A stretch of 64,000 nucleotides of DNA from positions 21,340 through 85,339 of the forward strand of contig JAFUAB010000009.1 in NCBI GenBank assembly GCA_017460885.1, written 5' to 3'. Under the pieces are notes generated by a model, which had not been told where the DNA came from, did no database searches, and saw nothing but the letters and a program-made list of their open reading frames with translations. Shown piece after piece: positions 57,081 through 64,000 of the stretch. The stretch comes from Lachnospiraceae bacterium. GTDB lineage: Bacteria > Bacillota > Clostridia > Lachnospirales > Lachnospiraceae. Made by a program: the position numbers and the translations under genes. Every line of letters starts with the position of its first letter. The first letter of the stretch is position 1.

Positions 57081-57842
57081 TCAGATACGCACGGAAATAC
57101 CCTGATCTCTCAGATAAGACTTCAGATCGGATATCTCCATTTCTCTATAGTGAAAAAGCGAAGCCGCAAGTGCCGCCTCGGCATGCCCCTCCTTAAATAC
57201 CTCCGCAAAATGCTCCATGGTGCCCGCACCTCCTGAAGCTATTACCGGCACATCCACGCTGTCGGCTATCCTGCGGGTCAGCTCAATATCATATCCTGCC
57301 TTGGTACCGTCACAGTCCATACTGGTCAGAAGTATTTCGCCGGCGCCGAGCGAAACAGCCTTAACTGCCCATTCCTCAGCGTCTATGCCCATATCGACAC
57401 GACCGCCGTTTTTGTAAATATTCCAGCCGCTTCCGTCGGGTCGTCTCTTCGCATCTATAGCCACAACCACACATTGACTGCCGAATTTATCGGCAGCCTC
57501 ACTGATCAGATTCGGATTCATTATCGCTGCGGAATTGACCGATACCTTGTCCGCACCCTCTCTGAGGATTGCCTTAAAATCATCAACCGTACGGATACCG
57601 CCGCCCACCGTAAAGGGTATAAAAACCCTCTCGGCTACACTGCGTACCATATCCACGGCAGTATGTCTCTCATCCGACGAAGCCGTAATATCGAGAAAGA
57701 CAAGTTCATCCGCTCCGGATCTGCTGTAAATCTCACCGACCTCTGCCGGATCTCCGACATCTTTGATATTAACAAAATTAACTCCCTTGACTACTCTGCC
57801 GTCTCTGACATCCAGACAGGGAATGATCCTCTTGGTATGCAT
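57081..57842 (-). CDS. hisF: Imidazole glycerol phosphate synthase subunit HisF
   Basis: HisF is the cyclase half of the fifth step of histidine biosynthesis. The 253-residue barrel has D11 in [14 protein letters not shown] and D130 in VVVAIDAKR, the two catalytic acids, plus FTVGGGIRT and VIASGGAGT phosphate loops. It follows hisH with one base between and precedes ung. Confidence 0.97.
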
Positions 57843-57843
57843 A

Positions 57844-58446
57844 TTATATCTCCAAAAAATTCTTCAGGATCGCAAGGCCGGTATCCGAACTCTTTTCGGG
57901 ATGAAACTGTGTCGCAAACAGATTCCCTCTCTCAACCGAGGCCTGGATCAGTGCGGCATATTCCGTTGTCGCGGTTACAACAGATGCATCCTCGGCTTCC
58001 AGATAGTAGGAATGAACGAAATACACATATGACCCTTCCGGAACGTCCTTAAAAAGCCTGCCCGGATTGGGATATTTAAGAGAATTCCAACCTATATGGG
58101 GAACCTTAAGTCCTTTATCGGGGATCCTCCTTATCCTGCCGGGTATAAGGCCAAGCCCTTCAACACCGGGGCTCTCTTCACTCTCATCAAAAAGCAGCTG
58201 CAATCCCAGACATATCCCCAAAAAAGGTATATCTTTGTCGACCGCTTCGGAAATAACTCCCACAAGATCATAATCGTTAAGGCGTTTCATCGCGTCCCCG
58301 AAGGCTCCGACTCCCGGAAGTATAACATGATCGGCATTCAGGATATCAAGCCTGTTTCGAGTCAGAACAGCATCTTTTCCAAGGTACTCGGTCGCTTTTT
58401 CTACACTTTTTACATTTCCCGCATCATAATCAATGATCGCTACCAC
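57844..58446 (-). CDS. hisH: Imidazole glycerol phosphate synthase subunit HisH
   Basis: HisH is the class I glutaminase that feeds ammonia to HisF. I chose the GTG at 58446 (200 residues) because GGAG lies 6 nt upstream and the protein then starts [11 protein letters not shown] like its family. An ATG at 58515 would add 23 atypical residues with no ribosome site. The catalytic triad is C79 (GICLGLQ), H182 and E184 (QFHPEKS). The oxyanion motif HIGWNSL is also present. hisH and hisF are the only his genes in the window. Confidence 0.93.
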
Positions 58447-58556
58447 TGTCTTCTCCAAATCCTCCGAACCCGTCCGGCACATACTCTCATCGAATCCCCG
58501 ATCAGGCATATTCATCGCGAAATGCCCTAAAAGTCCATCCCGATCAAAGTATTACT

Positions 58557-61500
58557 CTATTGAGAGTATAGCTGAAAGATCAACGCATCATCCGTATATC
58601 CGTTATCCGGAGTACCACCCCCGGGAATAACATTGCCGAAGGAATCAACCGTCTCCTGTAATATCGGTTCTCCCTGAGGTTCCGATCCCGTACCGGGCAT
58701 AACGGGTGTATCTCCGGATCCGCCATACAAACCGTCTCCGGCATCCTGATCTCCGGCTGTTCCTCCGATATCGGAGGTCTGAGCCGGGATATCGGACTTG
58801 ATCTTTCCGGCCAGGATATCATCTATATATCTGGTATAGTCGTAATCGGTGGGAGAATCTATTATCTTTCTCGCCAGTTCAGCATTTACACCGTATTTGG
58901 ACGCAAGGATGCCAATGATATTATTATAGCTTGCATCCACATCAGATCTCACGTATGTGGTATCGAAATTAGTGATCACATAATCATAACTCTGTACACC
59001 GCGGATCAGGGCATCAAGTGCTTCTCTCGGCATATCGAGACGAGTATAGTTTTCATACGCTCTCTCGAATCTGCGAACCTGAAGCACGCATTTGGCGTTG
59101 TTGAACATCACAAGATCATCGCCGCCGAGCTCCATACCATACAGATTGATATATGCTGTATCATAATCGCCATCCGCATACGCCCTTCTGGCTTCACGTT
59201 TCTGATTATCGGCAGGTACCAGCAGGCCTATCACCAAAAGAGCCGCCATGATCGGCATAAAGGTCACAAAGATCATTATGACCTTTTTCTTCGGAAGCCT
59301 CTTGATCGGGCCGAGTGCTGCTTCCTTTTCGGCTTTCTTGGCAGCCTTGGCTTCTTTGGCCGCCTTTTTGGCTGCTGCTTTTGCCGCCTTGGCCTTGGCC
59401 GCCTCTTCCTTTTTCTGTTTAGCGGCTTCTTCCTTGGCCTTGGCCTTGGGATCGTCCTTCTTGTCCTTCTTTTCCTTCTTTTTCTTTTTCTTCTTGCCTC
59501 CCTCTGCCGCTTCGGCATCAAGTTCGCCAAGAATAGCCATATTTTCTTCACCCGCAGCCTTCTCAGGAATGTTTTCGGGTGCTTCGGGATCATCAGCCTC
59601 CTCCGTGAGCGCCTCAATGATCCTCTTTATCAGGTTTTTGAATCCACCGGCCTTAGCCTCACCCTCTGCTTCCGTCTCATCAGGCTCAAGCTCATCACCG
59701 GATTTCTTTTTCTTCTTTTTGGGTTTCTTAGCTTTCTTAGCCTTTTTCGGCTTCTCTTCACCCTCTTCGGCTTCCTCTGCTTCTCCCTCTTCGGAATCCT
59801 TCGAACGGGCAGAATCGGAAAGAAGCTGGTCTATATCAAGTTCATCAACGGCAAGTTCACCCTCTCCGCGGTCTTCGGCAAATATATCGAAGGGAGTATT
59901 GTCGCCGTTGTCCACCATCTCATGATTGTCCGACATCGACAGGAGATCTTCTATTTCGGACAGATTCTCATCCTTCTCAGGAACAAAGCCTTCATCAAGA
60001 CTGGGGCCGTCAGCCGAAAGAGCGCCATTAAGGAGTGCCTCGATATCACTCTCATTCATTGTATCACTGCCTTCAGCGGAATCATCAGCCGCAATATCTT
60101 CTCCGGACTGGTCAAAGCCGGCCAAAAGCGCCGCAATATCATCCTCGGACATCTGATCGTTTGAATCACCCGAAGTCTCGGCCGTGAGCGCTGAATCCGG
60201 CTCAAGAACAGGTTCCTCCGACGCAGACTCATCTGCCGCCCCGGTATCATCCGCAGTTTCAGAATCTTCCGCATAGTCAGAATTGTTTTCGGGGGCATTT
60301 GCCTGCGCAAACAGGGCTGCTATATCATCAGCTGACAGCTTCGCATTCGGATCATCCGATACCGGTGTTATCTCAGGTATCGGAGCAGGTTCAGGCTCTG
60401 CCGTGGGGGCAGGTTCCTCTGCGGGAGCGAGTTCCTCTGCCGGTGCTGCCTCCTCTGCAGGTGCGGGTTCTTCTGCAGGTGCTGGCTGTTCTGCGGGGCC
60501 GTTCGCCTGTGCAAACAGGGCTGCTATATCATCAGGCGACAACTTCGCATTCGGATCATCCGATACCGGTGTTATCTCAGGTATCGGGGCAGGTTCGGGC
60601 TCTGCCACGGTTGCAGGTTCTTCTACCGGTGCTGGTTCCTCTGCAAGGGGCGATTCCTCTACGGGTATAGGCTCCTCTGCGGGAGTCGGATCTTCTGCAG
60701 GTGCTGGCTGTTCTGCAGAGCCGCTTGCCTGTGCAAACAGGGCTGCTATATCATCAGCCGACAGTTTTGCATTCGGATCATCCGATACCGGAGTTATCTC
60801 AGGTATCGGAGCAGGTTCAGGCTCTGCCGCGGGGGCAGGTTCCTCTGCGGGAGCGGGTTCCTCTGCCGGTGCTGCCTCCTCTGCAGGTGCGGGTTCTTCT
60901 GCAGGTGCTGGCTGTTCTGCGGGGCCGTTCGCCTGTGCAAACAGGGCTGCTATATCGTCGGCCGACAGCTTCGCATTCGGATCATCTGATACCGGTGTTA
61001 TCTCAGGTATCGGAGCAGGTTCGGGCTCTGCCACGGGTGCAGGTTCTTCTGCGGGGCCGCTTGCCTGTGCAAACAGAGCTGCTATGTCGTCGGCTGACAG
61101 CTTTGCATTCGGATCATCTGATACCGGTGTGATCTCAGGTATCGGTGCAGGTTCGGGCTCTGCCGCGGGGGCAGGCTCCTCTGCGGGAGCGGGTTCCTCT
61201 GTCGGTGCTGCCTCTGCCGGAGCGGGTTCCTCTGCCGGTACTGCTTCCTCTGCAGGTACGGGTTCTTCTGCCGGTGCTGGCTGTTCTGCAGGGCCGTTTG
61301 CCTGTGCAAACAGAGCTGCTATATCGTCAGGCGACAGCTTCGCATTCGGATCATCCGATACCGGTGTGATCTCGGGTATCGGGGCAGGTTCAGGCTCAAA
61401 TGCCGGTTCAACTATCGGGGCAGGTTCTGTAATTGCTTCAACTACCGGTTCGGGCTCTGATACAGCCTCAGTCACTACCTCCGGTTCTGGAGCAGGTTCT

Positions 61501-62501
61501 GCTACAGGCTGATCAAGCTGTGCGAACATCGCTGTTATATCATCAGGCGACAGCTTCGCATTAGGATCATCCGATACCGGCATGATCTCAGGTACCGGTG
61601 TCGGTTCGGGCTCAAATGCCGGTTCAACTACCGATTCAGGTTCGGGCTCCGGTACTGCCTCAATAATCGGTTCGGGCTCTGATACAGACTCAGTCACTAC
61701 CTCCGGTTCTGGAGCAGGTTCTGCTACAGGCTGATCAAGCTGTGCGAACATCGCTGTTATATCATCAGGCGACAGCTTCGCATTAGGATCATCCGATACC
61801 GGCATGATTTCAGGTACCGGTGTCGGTTCGGGCTCAAATGCCGGTTCAACTACCGATTCAGGTTCGGGCTCCGGTACAACCTCAACTATCGGTTCAGGTT
61901 CAGAGACAGTCTCGACTATAGGTTCAGTTTCATTAGTTGCTTCAACTACTGGCTCGGGCTCCGACACAACCTCAATAATCGATTCAGGTTCTGATACAGT
62001 TTCAGACACAACCTCCGGTTTTGGAGTCGGTTCTGCTGAAGGCTGATCAAGCTGTGCGAACATTGCGGCTAGATCATCAGCTGACATTTTCGCACTCGGA
62101 TCATCTGATACCGGTATGATCTCGGGGATCGATGCAGACTCAGGTCCGGGTGACGGTTCAACAATTGGTTCCGGTTCGGGCACAGCCTCAACTACTGGCT
62201 CCGGTTCAGGCACAGCCTCAACTACTGGCTCCGGTTCGGGTACAACCTCAACTACAGGCCCCGGATCAGGAGTCGGCACTGCTTCCGGCTCTGATTCAGG
62301 TATAGTTTCAATTACAGGTTCAGGCTCTGATATAGGTGCATCCGAAAAGATACTCCTGCTGGCAGAATTGCCAAATATACCCATGCTCCTCAACCTGTCT
62401 GCGGCAGTCAGAGGAGGCTCAGGTAAATCACCTGCGCCACTCCCATTTCGCTCTCCGGCGTTCTTTAATAGGTTGTCGAGATAATTCTCATCTACAGCCA
62501 T
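58557..62501 (-). CDS. Membrane-anchored repeat protein with tandem FliM-N-like motifs
   Basis: The 1314-residue protein begins MAVDENYLDNLLKNAGE. Residues about 50-830 are Pro/Glu/Ala-rich and hold nine copies of the unit SDDPNAKLS-x-DDI-x-A-x-FAQ. Four more divergent motifs lie up to about residue 895 (MSEDDIAALLAG, MNESDIEALLNG, LSEIEDLLS, ELDIDQLLS). Acidic and Lys/Ala-rich stretches (about 900-1068) lead to one membrane helix (about 1072-1095), and an external TPR-like domain with a Gly/Asp-rich end follows. The motif resembles the CheY-binding N-terminus of FliM (LSQAEIDALLNG). The positive-inside charge places the motifs in the cytoplasm. AGGAG precedes the ATG, directly after the cheV terminator. 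I know of no named family. Confidence 0.8.
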   Translation of the reverse strand: MAVDENYLDNLLKNAGERNGSGAGDLPEPPLTAADRLRSMGIFGNSASRSIFSDAPISEPEPVIETIPESEPEAVPTPDPGPVVEVVPEPEPVVEAVPEPEPVVEAVPEPEPIVEPSPGPESASIPEIIPVSDDPSAKMSADDLAAMFAQLDQPSAEPTPKPEVVSETVSEPESIIEVVSEPEPVVEATNETEPIVETVSEPEPIVEVVPEPEPESVVEPAFEPEPTPVPEIMPVSDDPNAKLSPDDITAMFAQLDQPVAEPAPEPEVVTESVSEPEPIIEAVPEPEPESVVEPAFEPEPTPVPEIMPVSDDPNAKLSPDDITAMFAQLDQPVAEPAPEPEVVTEAVSEPEPVVEAITEPAPIVEPAFEPEPAPIPEITPVSDDPNAKLSPDDIAALFAQANGPAEQPAPAEEPVPAEEAVPAEEPAPAEAAPTEEPAPAEEPAPAAEPEPAPIPEITPVSDDPNAKLSADDIAALFAQASGPAEEPAPVAEPEPAPIPEITPVSDDPNAKLSADDIAALFAQANGPAEQPAPAEEPAPAEEAAPAEEPAPAEEPAPAAEPEPAPIPEITPVSDDPNAKLSADDIAALFAQASGSAEQPAPAEDPTPAEEPIPVEESPLAEEPAPVEEPATVAEPEPAPIPEITPVSDDPNAKLSPDDIAALFAQANGPAEQPAPAEEPAPAEEAAPAEELAPAEEPAPTAEPEPAPIPEITPVSDDPNAKLSADDIAALFAQANAPENNSDYAEDSETADDTGAADESASEEPVLEPDSALTAETSGDSNDQMSEDDIAALLAGFDQSGEDIAADDSAEGSDTMNESDIEALLNGALSADGPSLDEGFVPEKDENLSEIEDLLSMSDNHEMVDNGDNTPFDIFAEDRGEGELAVDELDIDQLLSDSARSKDSEEGEAEEAEEGEEKPKKAKKAKKPKKKKKKSGDELEPDETEAEGEAKAGGFKNLIKRIIEALTEEADDPEAPENIPEKAAGEENMAILGELDAEAAEGGKKKKKKKEKKDKKDDPKAKAKEEAAKQKKEEAAKAKAAKAAAKKAAKEAKAAKKAEKEAALGPIKRLPKKKVIMIFVTFMPIMAALLVIGLLVPADNQKREARRAYADGDYDTAYINLYGMELGGDDLVMFNNAKCVLQVRRFERAYENYTRLDMPREALDALIRGVQSYDYVITNFDTTYVRSDVDASYNNIIGILASKYGVNAELARKIIDSPTDYDYTRYIDDILAGKIKSDIPAQTSDIGGTAGDQDAGDGLYGGSGDTPVMPGTGSEPQGEPILQETVDSFGNVIPGGGTPDNGYTDDALIFQLYSQ
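59810..62112 (-). repeat. Array of about thirteen FliM-N-like motif codings
   Basis: Motif copies, in N- to C-terminal order, lie near 62042-62112, 61731-61800, 61510-61578, 61300-61362, 61060-61123, 60928-60993, 60724-60789, 60501-60567, 60298-60363, 60108-60171, 60020-60065, 59930-59975 and 59810-59855. The first nine are close copies ending FAQ; the last four are degenerate. Spacing varies from about 130 to 310 nt in the repeat block. Confidence 0.8.
61459..61902 (-). repeat. Near-identical 222-bp direct duplication
   Basis: Two adjacent units (61459-61680 and 61681-61902) differ by only a few bases until their last part. The period of 222 bp is 74 codons and keeps the frame, so it is a recent in-frame duplication. 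A further close copy, about 210 bp at an offset of 426 bp, begins at 60376 and again at 60802. Confidence 0.85.
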
Positions 62502-62514
62502 AGCTGCAACTCCT

Positions 62515-62546
62515 AAAAAATAGCCGGGAGCAATGAACCCCCGGCT
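62515..62546 (-). terminator. Terminator of cheV abutting the repeat-gene ribosome site
   Basis: AGCCGGG and CCCGGCT pair (62522-62546) with an 11-nt loop, followed on the minus strand by ATTTTTT. The T-run leads straight into AGGAG, the ribosome site of the 1314-residue gene. Expression of that gene therefore seems to need read-through. Confidence 0.85.
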
Positions 62547-62575: not shown

Positions 62576-63478
62576 TTACTCTTTTCCTAATACCAGTTTA
62601 TCAACAGTCTTTACCAGATTACCAATCTCAGGCTTGGAAAGTTGTGCATCCGCACCAAGAGCCTCACCCTTGCGCTTCATTTCAGCATTTACAAGTGATG
62701 AGAAAATAACTACAGGAATATCCTTAGTCCTCTCATCATCCTTTATCAGCTTAGTAAGGCGATGCCCATCCATCAAAGGCATCTCGATATCAGTAATCAC
62801 ACATTTAACCTTATCAAGTACATTGCCGGCTTCCTTATACTCGCAAATGATATCATATGCATCCTGTCCGTTTTCGGTATGCATAAGATTCTCATAACCG
62901 GCCTGCTTAAGAGAATCAACGATAAGATGATTAAGAAGAGGCGAATCTTCCGCAATAAGTATCGGTATATTATTGCGTGTACGCTCACCAAGCTCCGAAA
63001 GATCAGCCATCTTAAGACCTGTTTCAGGATTGATATCCGATACGATCTTCTCAAAGTCAAGGATAATGATCAATCTTCCGTCGATCTTGATAATACCGGT
63101 TGAAACTCCGTCTTCCGCGGTAGATACCGTCGTACCGGGCTTAATGATCTCAGTCCAGGAGACTCTGTGGATACCTACTACCGAATCCACATGAAAAGCT
63201 ATATCCAGCTTATTGAAATTTGTAACTATAAAAAGACCACCCGGAACAGAAGCTCCACGCTGAAGGCAATTCTTCAAGTCGATCGCCGTGATCATTGTAT
63301 CTCTCGGCATAAAAATACCTTCAATACTGGGATGCGCATTAGGAACCAGTGTAACCTCCTGATAATTGATGATTTCTTTGATCTTGGCTACGTTGATACC
63401 GTACGCATTGCCATCTAGCATAAATTCCAGGACTTCCAGCTCATTAGTACCGTTTTCCAGTAAGATGTTTGTATCCAT
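62576..63478 (-). CDS. cheV: Chemotaxis coupling protein CheV
   Basis: CheV joins a CheW coupling domain (about 12-150; EVLEFMLDGNAYGINVAKIKEII and GVIKIDGRLIIILD-like) to a receiver domain (about 172-298). The receiver has E177-D178, phospho-acceptor D230 in TDIEMPLMDG, and K282. It links receptors to CheA and adapts or dampens signalling when phosphorylated. The 300-residue length is normal. AAGGGG precedes the ATG and a SigA promoter lies 63 nt upstream. The next gene downstream encodes the FliM-motif repeat protein. Confidence 0.95.
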   Translation of the reverse strand: MDTNILLENGTNELEVLEFMLDGNAYGINVAKIKEIINYQEVTLVPNAHPSIEGIFMPRDTMITAIDLKNCLQRGASVPGGLFIVTNFNKLDIAFHVDSVVGIHRVSWTEIIKPGTTVSTAEDGVSTGIIKIDGRLIIILDFEKIVSDINPETGLKMADLSELGERTRNNIPILIAEDSPLLNHLIVDSLKQAGYENLMHTENGQDAYDIICEYKEAGNVLDKVKCVITDIEMPLMDGHRLTKLIKDDERTKDIPVVIFSSLVNAEMKRKGEALGADAQLSKPEIGNLVKTVDKLVLGKE

Positions 63479-63805: not shown

Positions 63806-64000
63806 GTGGATGATAAAAGTATACAGCATACACGCTGGAATTGCACGTATCATATCGTGTTTATCCCAAAATACAGGAAGAAAATACTCTACGGAAGTAA
63901 TAAACGAGATCTTACAGAGATCATTCCAAAGCTTTGTGAGATGAAGGGTGTAAATATCATAGAAGGAAAGGTATGTGTAGATCATGTACACATGTATGTG
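63806..64000 (+). CDS. tnpA: IS200/IS605 family transposase TnpA (5' part)
   Basis: From GTG 63806, 65 residues are visible. TYHIVFIPKYRKKILYG (14-30) is the TnpA start motif and DHVHM (59-63) is the HUH metal site of the single-strand transposase. The catalytic Tyr lies beyond the window. The GTG follows GGAGGT at 7 nt, buried in a hairpin. The frame is intact so far. Confidence 0.92.
   Translation, partial: MDDKSIQHTRWNCTYHIVFIPKYRKKILYGSNKRDLTEIIPKLCEMKGVNIIEGKVCVDHVHMYV

Follow-up and report, generated by a model that had tools for sequence, protein, structure and literature searches.

The window analysed here, a stretch of 64,000 nucleotides from a Lachnospiraceae bacterium (contig JAFUAB010000009.1 of assembly GCA_017460885.1, positions 21,340 to 85,339), carries next to the chemotaxis gene cheV a gene for a membrane protein, here called X, whose long acidic arm bears short motifs sharing a core pattern with the N termini of FliM and FliY. 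Our preferred, still tentative, interpretation is that X, anchored in the membrane, serves the CheV branch of chemotaxis in flagellated Lachnospiraceae as a multivalent docking hub.

Anatomy and motifs of X

X was found on the minus strand (58557..62501) as an open reading frame (ORF) of 1314 uninterrupted codons, according to the ORF list and its translation, and 84 of the 200 Lachnospiraceae genomes surveyed possess a strong homologue. Residues 1-898 are dominated by Pro (18.2%), Glu (16.6%), Ala (16.3%) and Asp (8.4%). They are followed by a charged stretch that is Lys-rich in composition (aa 899-1066; 59304..59807, minus strand), and Lys and Arg make up 40% of the 70 residues preceding the membrane helix. 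A sequence-only reading of this DNA had proposed one such helix, and hydropathy agreed: the sole hydrophobic segment (aa 1077-1095; 59217..59273, minus strand) has a mean of 2.72, while the second-highest peak in the protein is 0.68. The domain after the helix (approximately aa 1096-1240; 58782..59216, minus strand) is the family-conserved part in an alignment of 54 sequences, and by eye its fold looks like that of tetratricopeptide repeats. From the charge distribution and the positive-inside rule, the arm is predicted to lie in the cytoplasm and the C-terminal part outside the cell membrane.

X could not be assigned to a known family. Neither PF02154 nor the SPOA or FliM middle domain was matched at E<=1 in Pfam, no LysM or FimV core was detected with Pfam or NCBIfam in X (E<=1) and ten homologues (E<=0.01), and X and ten diverse homologues reached no curated cut-off in any Pfam or NCBIfam family. 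Comparison of X with PDB sequences gave chance-level matches only (best E 0.36). Pfam TAD2 and BcsR as well as NCBIfam TolA were rejected as identities for X, because the matches fell below cut-off and sat on motif copies (TAD2 and BcsR) or on the Lys-rich stretch (TolA).

The sequence-only reading had counted about eleven copies of S-x-D-D-I-x-A-[LM]-[FL] plus two looser ones, and the count held: the unrelaxed pattern matched X nine times, and relaxing it for SADDLAAMF (aa 140) and NESDIEALL (aa 816) gave eleven matches. Nine copies, typically PNAKLSxDDIAALFAQ, form an array recognised by pattern and matrix (60303..62087, minus strand), in which the 12-residue segments start at aa 139, 243, 317, 389, 468, 512, 580, 654 and 722. 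Further copies on the same strand are MSEDDIAALLAG (aa 784-795; 60117..60152), which has the top score in X (18.2) with the FliM-N matrix described below, and MNESDIEALLNG (aa 815-826; 60024..60059; score 16.7), as well as the two looser motifs, ENLSEIEDLLSM (aa 845-856; 59934..59969; score 7.2) and VDELDIDQLLSD (aa 885-896; 59814..59849; score 6.9). A motif at the very N terminus, VDENYLDNLLKN (aa 3-14; 62460..62495, minus strand), had been missed earlier, and the total in the window protein, including the looser and N-terminal ones, comes to 14, with the general form L-S-x-D-D-I-x-x-[LM]-[LF]. Not one pattern match arose when residues 1-898 were shuffled 10000 times, although the copies are mostly duplicates of one another and hence do not represent eleven independent events.

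The copies within a gene are separated by silent differences and few residue changes, and across nine loci the ratio of nonsynonymous to synonymous differences per site (pN/pS), taken over 14 codons, ranges from 0.00 to 0.27. When the nine loci were pooled, the ten motif codons had a pN/pS of 0.08, against 0.45 in the upstream and 0.41 in the downstream flank, at pS values of 0.43, 0.51 and 0.52, respectively, and the contrast was clear in most of the loci. Because motif pN/pS lies below that of the flanks at similar pS, the X motif is likely under selection, for whichever partner.

The EIDAL motif at the N terminus of FliM and FliY is the binding site of phosphorylated CheY (CheY~P) and of FlhG. 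With a matrix built from 30 FliM and 26 FliY N termini (30 of 110 genomes with a FliM-family match), the eleven X copies scored 7.4 to 18.2, and only two of them (18.2 and 16.7) exceeded the maximum of 14.3 obtained from 1000 shuffles of the first 1040 residues of X; a chance stretch inside the C-terminal domain scored 9.6. The 81 X arms compared (38,985 residues) held 13 matches of at least 16, spread over 10 arms, whereas the neighbouring proteins, 277,643 residues in total, gave four such matches, all of them inside the split X of one locus (L047). The loose pattern used for family-wide enrichment, [DEQSN][ILMVFY]xx[LM][LFMI], was 7.3-fold enriched in the array clade defined below (28 members; 176 against 24.2 in shuffled sequences), 4.7-fold in the 17 array-free members of that clade (83 against 17.8) and 3.1-fold in the other 53 homologues (96 against 30.7). 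The likeness to FliM N termini put forward in the sequence-only reading was partly borne out: the motifs beat shuffles and neighbouring proteins, but a FliM-N profile misses X.

X and the FliM/FliY N termini share the core L-S-x-x-[DE]-I-x-x-L-[LF] and occur in the same genomes, and one loose motif occupies an N-terminal place in most X homologues. On the other hand, X is membrane-anchored, has 14 motifs and no SPOA or FliM domain match and, compared with N-terminal LSQxEIDxLL, lacks the Gln throughout and the Asp in the array copies. As a separate observation, a XerC/D-like recombinase (by eye; L168:988-1872, minus strand) carries the FliM-N look-alike SQDEIDSLLSQ and is a useful decoy for motif searches.

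Linkage to cheV and distribution of the family

The cheV gene (62576..63478, minus strand), which encodes CheW and receiver domains (Pfam CheW 2.1e-30, Response_reg 9.6e-18), lies upstream of X on the same strand with a gap of 74 bases, as the sequence-only reading had noted. The pairing proved to be conserved across Lachnospiraceae: in 68 of 82 loci X comes after cheV in the same orientation and no more than 5 kb away. Of the 14 loci without this order, eight are cut off by a contig edge; the other six have space but no cheV nearby, and there CheV is encoded elsewhere in the genome; the distant CheVs of G092 and G101 are 53% and 43% identical to the window CheV. A strong terminator-like hairpin of 10 pairs and a T-run, found by a pattern scan (62522..62546, minus strand), lies between cheV and X and ends just ahead of the likely ribosome site of X, whose expression may be partly independent of cheV.

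The family was surveyed in the 200 Lachnospiraceae genomes and, more widely, in 246 genomes from the whole order. Searching with the C-terminal part of X yielded homologues in 81 of the 200 genomes, and a profile of 54 homologues found 87 at E 1e-3, including the 84 strong ones (E <1e-20). The idea that X is confined to the genus of the window was rejected, as homologues are family-wide. In the order-wide search, strong matches were seen in Lachnospiraceae alone; beyond the family, 5 genomes gave weak matches that covered part of the sequence (E 7e-6 to 7e-4). The homologues share a plan of N-terminal motif, acidic arm, basic stretch, one helix and C-terminal domain. The second hydropathy peak does not exceed 1.31 in any of the 81 proteins, the arms contain a median of 31% Asp plus Glu and 7% Lys plus Arg, and their length is 170-1092 residues, some arms being clipped by contig ends. 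A loose YLDxLL-type motif begins 62 of the 81 homologues, and some of the remaining 19 are cut by contig ends.

Fourteen of the 81 homologues carry strict motifs, and these 14 all belong to a single clade of 28 rows, whose branch has a support of 96/94. Eleven homologues have arrays of at least two strict copies; within this array clade, the members with arrays (2 to 13 copies) are interspersed with array-free ones. From the locus comparisons we left out L038 (contig shared with L004), L112 (missed by blastp) and G131, and L003, whose arm is largely off its contig, was excluded from arm counts and tree; in L047 X is split in two frames, and the four copies in the other frame were added to the strict count by hand. 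Fourteen of the 81 homologues (L064, L068, L106 and 11 others) begin with a zinc-ribbon-like CxxC pair, for which the two that were checked gave Pfam Zn_Ribbon_1 below cut-off only.

The link of X to chemotaxis, and to cheV in particular, that had been proposed from the gene order was corroborated by co-occurrence as well as adjacency. Full FliM was found in 108 of the 200 genomes, 89 of them with the strong-scoring type (E <1e-45). FliM is present in 81 of the 84 X genomes, counting G103 and G168, which the profile search added, and strong X is absent from all 19 genomes that carry the other FliM type. CheV (E 1e-60 or better) was found in 78 of the 84; in four of the six others the contig breaks off close to X in the direction of cheV, and the last two are G147, where X runs off the contig, and G110, which has a partial cheV. 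The 89 strong-type flagellates comprise 76 genomes with both X and CheV, five with X only, one with CheV only and seven with neither (Fisher 8.7e-7, genomes taken as independent). All eight of these flagellates that lack X keep CheY, whereas seven of them show no CheV. With the cautions on completeness and deletion given below, the presence of X is tied more tightly to CheV than to CheY.

Three X genomes lack FliM. FlhA and CheY are present in G042, while in G147 FlhA is intact and FliM, CheY and CheV were not found. In G174 (L078; X without arrays, cheV present; 76% complete), FliM and CheY (E 1e-30) were not found and FlhA exists only as a broken 109-codon piece, possibly reflecting flagellar loss or missing contigs. 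Among the 200 genomes, no homologue with an array was seen in a species without cheY and cheV, G174 and G147 being the nearest cases.

Possible partners and competing explanations

If the docking-hub interpretation is correct, the C-terminal domain and the membrane helix would anchor X in the envelope, and the long, acidic and probably disordered cytoplasmic arm would present many short amphipathic motifs. As the FliM/FliY N terminus does, these would dock on a CheY-fold receiver at its alpha4-beta5-alpha5 face, the ligand being either CheY~P or the CheV receiver. Many weak sites per chain could then gather phosphorylated receivers at the membrane, near CheV-containing arrays, and the signal might be buffered or pre-concentrated, or the array tethered. 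It is also conceivable, if rather doubtful, that CheV has in X a hitherto undescribed partner whose switch-type peptides compete with the motor for CheY~P or catch the phosphorylated CheV receiver, with copy number setting gain or adaptation; in that case, X would be a chemotaxis component without counterpart in model systems.

We rate CheY~P and the CheV receiver as about equally probable ligands, motif likeness speaking for the former and gene linkage for the latter. The CheY of this organism closely resembles that of T. maritima in the alpha4-beta5-alpha5 region. The CheV receivers have a conserved basic helix 4 in the alignment, which could suit the acidic X motifs, and comparison of CheV from the array clade (24 sequences) with the rest (44) revealed no column pointing to the motif face. 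FlhG, a homologue of which is encoded in the same genome (L169:11775-12662; PDB matches to FleN at E 1e-56 and to 4rz2 at E 7e-50), is a further candidate partner, because the N-terminal 36 residues of FliY bind FlhG in Bacillota, as stated in the available text of PMC12327844. The Cle proteins of Caulobacter offer a parallel in that the FliM-N interface is regulated outside classic CheY; however, they are receivers that bind FliM, whereas X carries the FliM-like side.

Several observations weigh against the docking-hub interpretation. The motif has changed as much as, or more than, some of its surroundings in individual genes: in L004 its pN/pS (0.49) is above both flanks (0.26 and 0.41), and in the window gene it (0.20) is about equal to the upstream flank (0.19; downstream 0.59). 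In addition, the copies entering the pN/pS comparison were chosen by pattern, which biases pN downwards. When the entire genome of the window organism was searched with a profile built from 28 native FliM/FliY N termini, it recovered FliM, FliY and the XerC/D-like recombinase and, at E up to 10, no X copy, and X copies were absent among the best 30 matches of a further FliM-N profile search. The array copies have Ala or Thr where EIDAL has Asp, reading IAAL, ITAM or LAAM against IDxL in FliM, and the Gln that follows Ser in all 56 FliM/FliY N termini occurs in none of the window copies. In Caulobacter, changing ID to WA in FliM abolished CleA binding and the localisation of CleA and CleD, according to the accessible part of PMC5677366. 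The X motif could also be an ordinary capped amphipathic helix, and 67 of the 81 homologues have no strict copy at all.

The co-occurrence with CheV needs similar care. Five of the seven assemblies without X and CheV are <90% complete, the joint absence could reflect one deletion of neighbouring genes, and 15 of 93 CheV genomes lack X. Furthermore, the position of the switch aromatic is occupied by Gln in the CheV receiver of 67 of the 68 loci. Excluding this receiver as a ligand on that ground was rejected, because 67 or 68 of the 68 sequences retain the acid pocket. V. cholerae CheV4, which has no aromatic switch residue, is genetically tied to the membrane protein MotV in the portion of PMC8789113 consulted. 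Both cases thus concern a CheV without the switch aromatic tied to a membrane protein, although the residue is Ala or Thr in V. cholerae and Gln in the window CheV.

Three other explanations for X were weighed. HubP, as portrayed in sections of PMC8789113, crosses the membrane with a single helix; its large, acidic cytosolic part contains D/E-rich repeats, and its periplasmic domain positions it. It is tied to ParC/ParP and FlhG, and CheV4 is enriched in HubP+ minicells. Like HubP/FimV, X has one helix, an acidic repeat-bearing arm (probably cytoplasmic) and a domain across the membrane, and both are linked to CheV and flagellar control. In contrast, the arm of X is N-terminal, no LysM or FimV core was matched, and the strong homologues in the 246-genome search are confined to Lachnospiraceae; on these features X is HubP-type by anatomy and outside the HubP family by domain matches. 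Given the similar plan, X might be a polar or array landmark of the HubP/FimV type, its acidic arm binding other chemotaxis or cell-pole partners and its FliM-N likeness arising by convergence of capped amphipathic helices, as the better and presumably fortuitous FliM-N match of the XerC/D-like recombinase could suggest. We consider this unlikely, since the motifs in X are denser and of better quality than those in the proteins encoded nearby, and they have diverged less than the sequence on either side of them.

It is somewhat harder to credit that X is a hub for flagellar placement or number, with motifs that mimic the FliY/FliM N terminus to bind FlhG. FlhG would then be localised, or held back from C-ring assembly, and the adjacency of cheV would be incidental. 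The presence of FlhG in the genome is compatible with such a role, as is the effect of HubP, a similar acidic membrane hub, on flagellum assembly via FlhG in the text available from PMC8789113. Nevertheless, X adjoins cheV while flhF/flhG lie on another contig, and X tracks CheV beyond flagella, as the X-less flagellates without CheV illustrate. Finally, DNA-level tandem repeats (period-204 and period-222), a strict copy number varying from 0 to 13 among homologues, and flanks that are themselves somewhat constrained would all fit a low-complexity spacer growing by slippage, its motifs having no specific ligand. This we regard as very improbable, because the pooled motif pN/pS is far below that of the flanks despite a spacing of 39 to 108 residues, and the same pattern is kept in copies that have been homogenised differently between genera.

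Recent work calls the role of CheV and of its phosphorylation uncertain (PMC12691637, in the part available), and a conserved membrane partner that appears and vanishes with CheV in one large family may provide a handle on that role. If the X motifs bind receivers, as the docking-hub interpretation would have it, X would give cells a second binding site for the chemotaxis signal, independent of the motor, the valency of which would be tuned in evolution via repeat number. A literature search returned, among the matches listed, nothing on X or on tandem copies of the FliM-N motif in any protein other than the switch.

Neighbouring genes

Downstream of X, hisH- and hisF-like genes (by eye) occupy 57081-58515 on the minus strand, and each of the two families is present in 76 of the compared loci, a constant setting and an unexpected one for a chemotaxis gene. 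Upstream of cheV, an IS200-type transposase frame (63806-64000, plus strand; PF01797, E 2e-15) runs off the end of the window. In 30 loci, a conserved protein with CxxC pairs (median 272 aa, stop to stop) is encoded near cheV and X, mostly between them; it is SIR2-like by eye (e.g., L067:5267-5884), and one member had no Pfam match. In a close relative, an EAL-domain protein that is absent from the window lies between cheV and X (L004:3361-5373).

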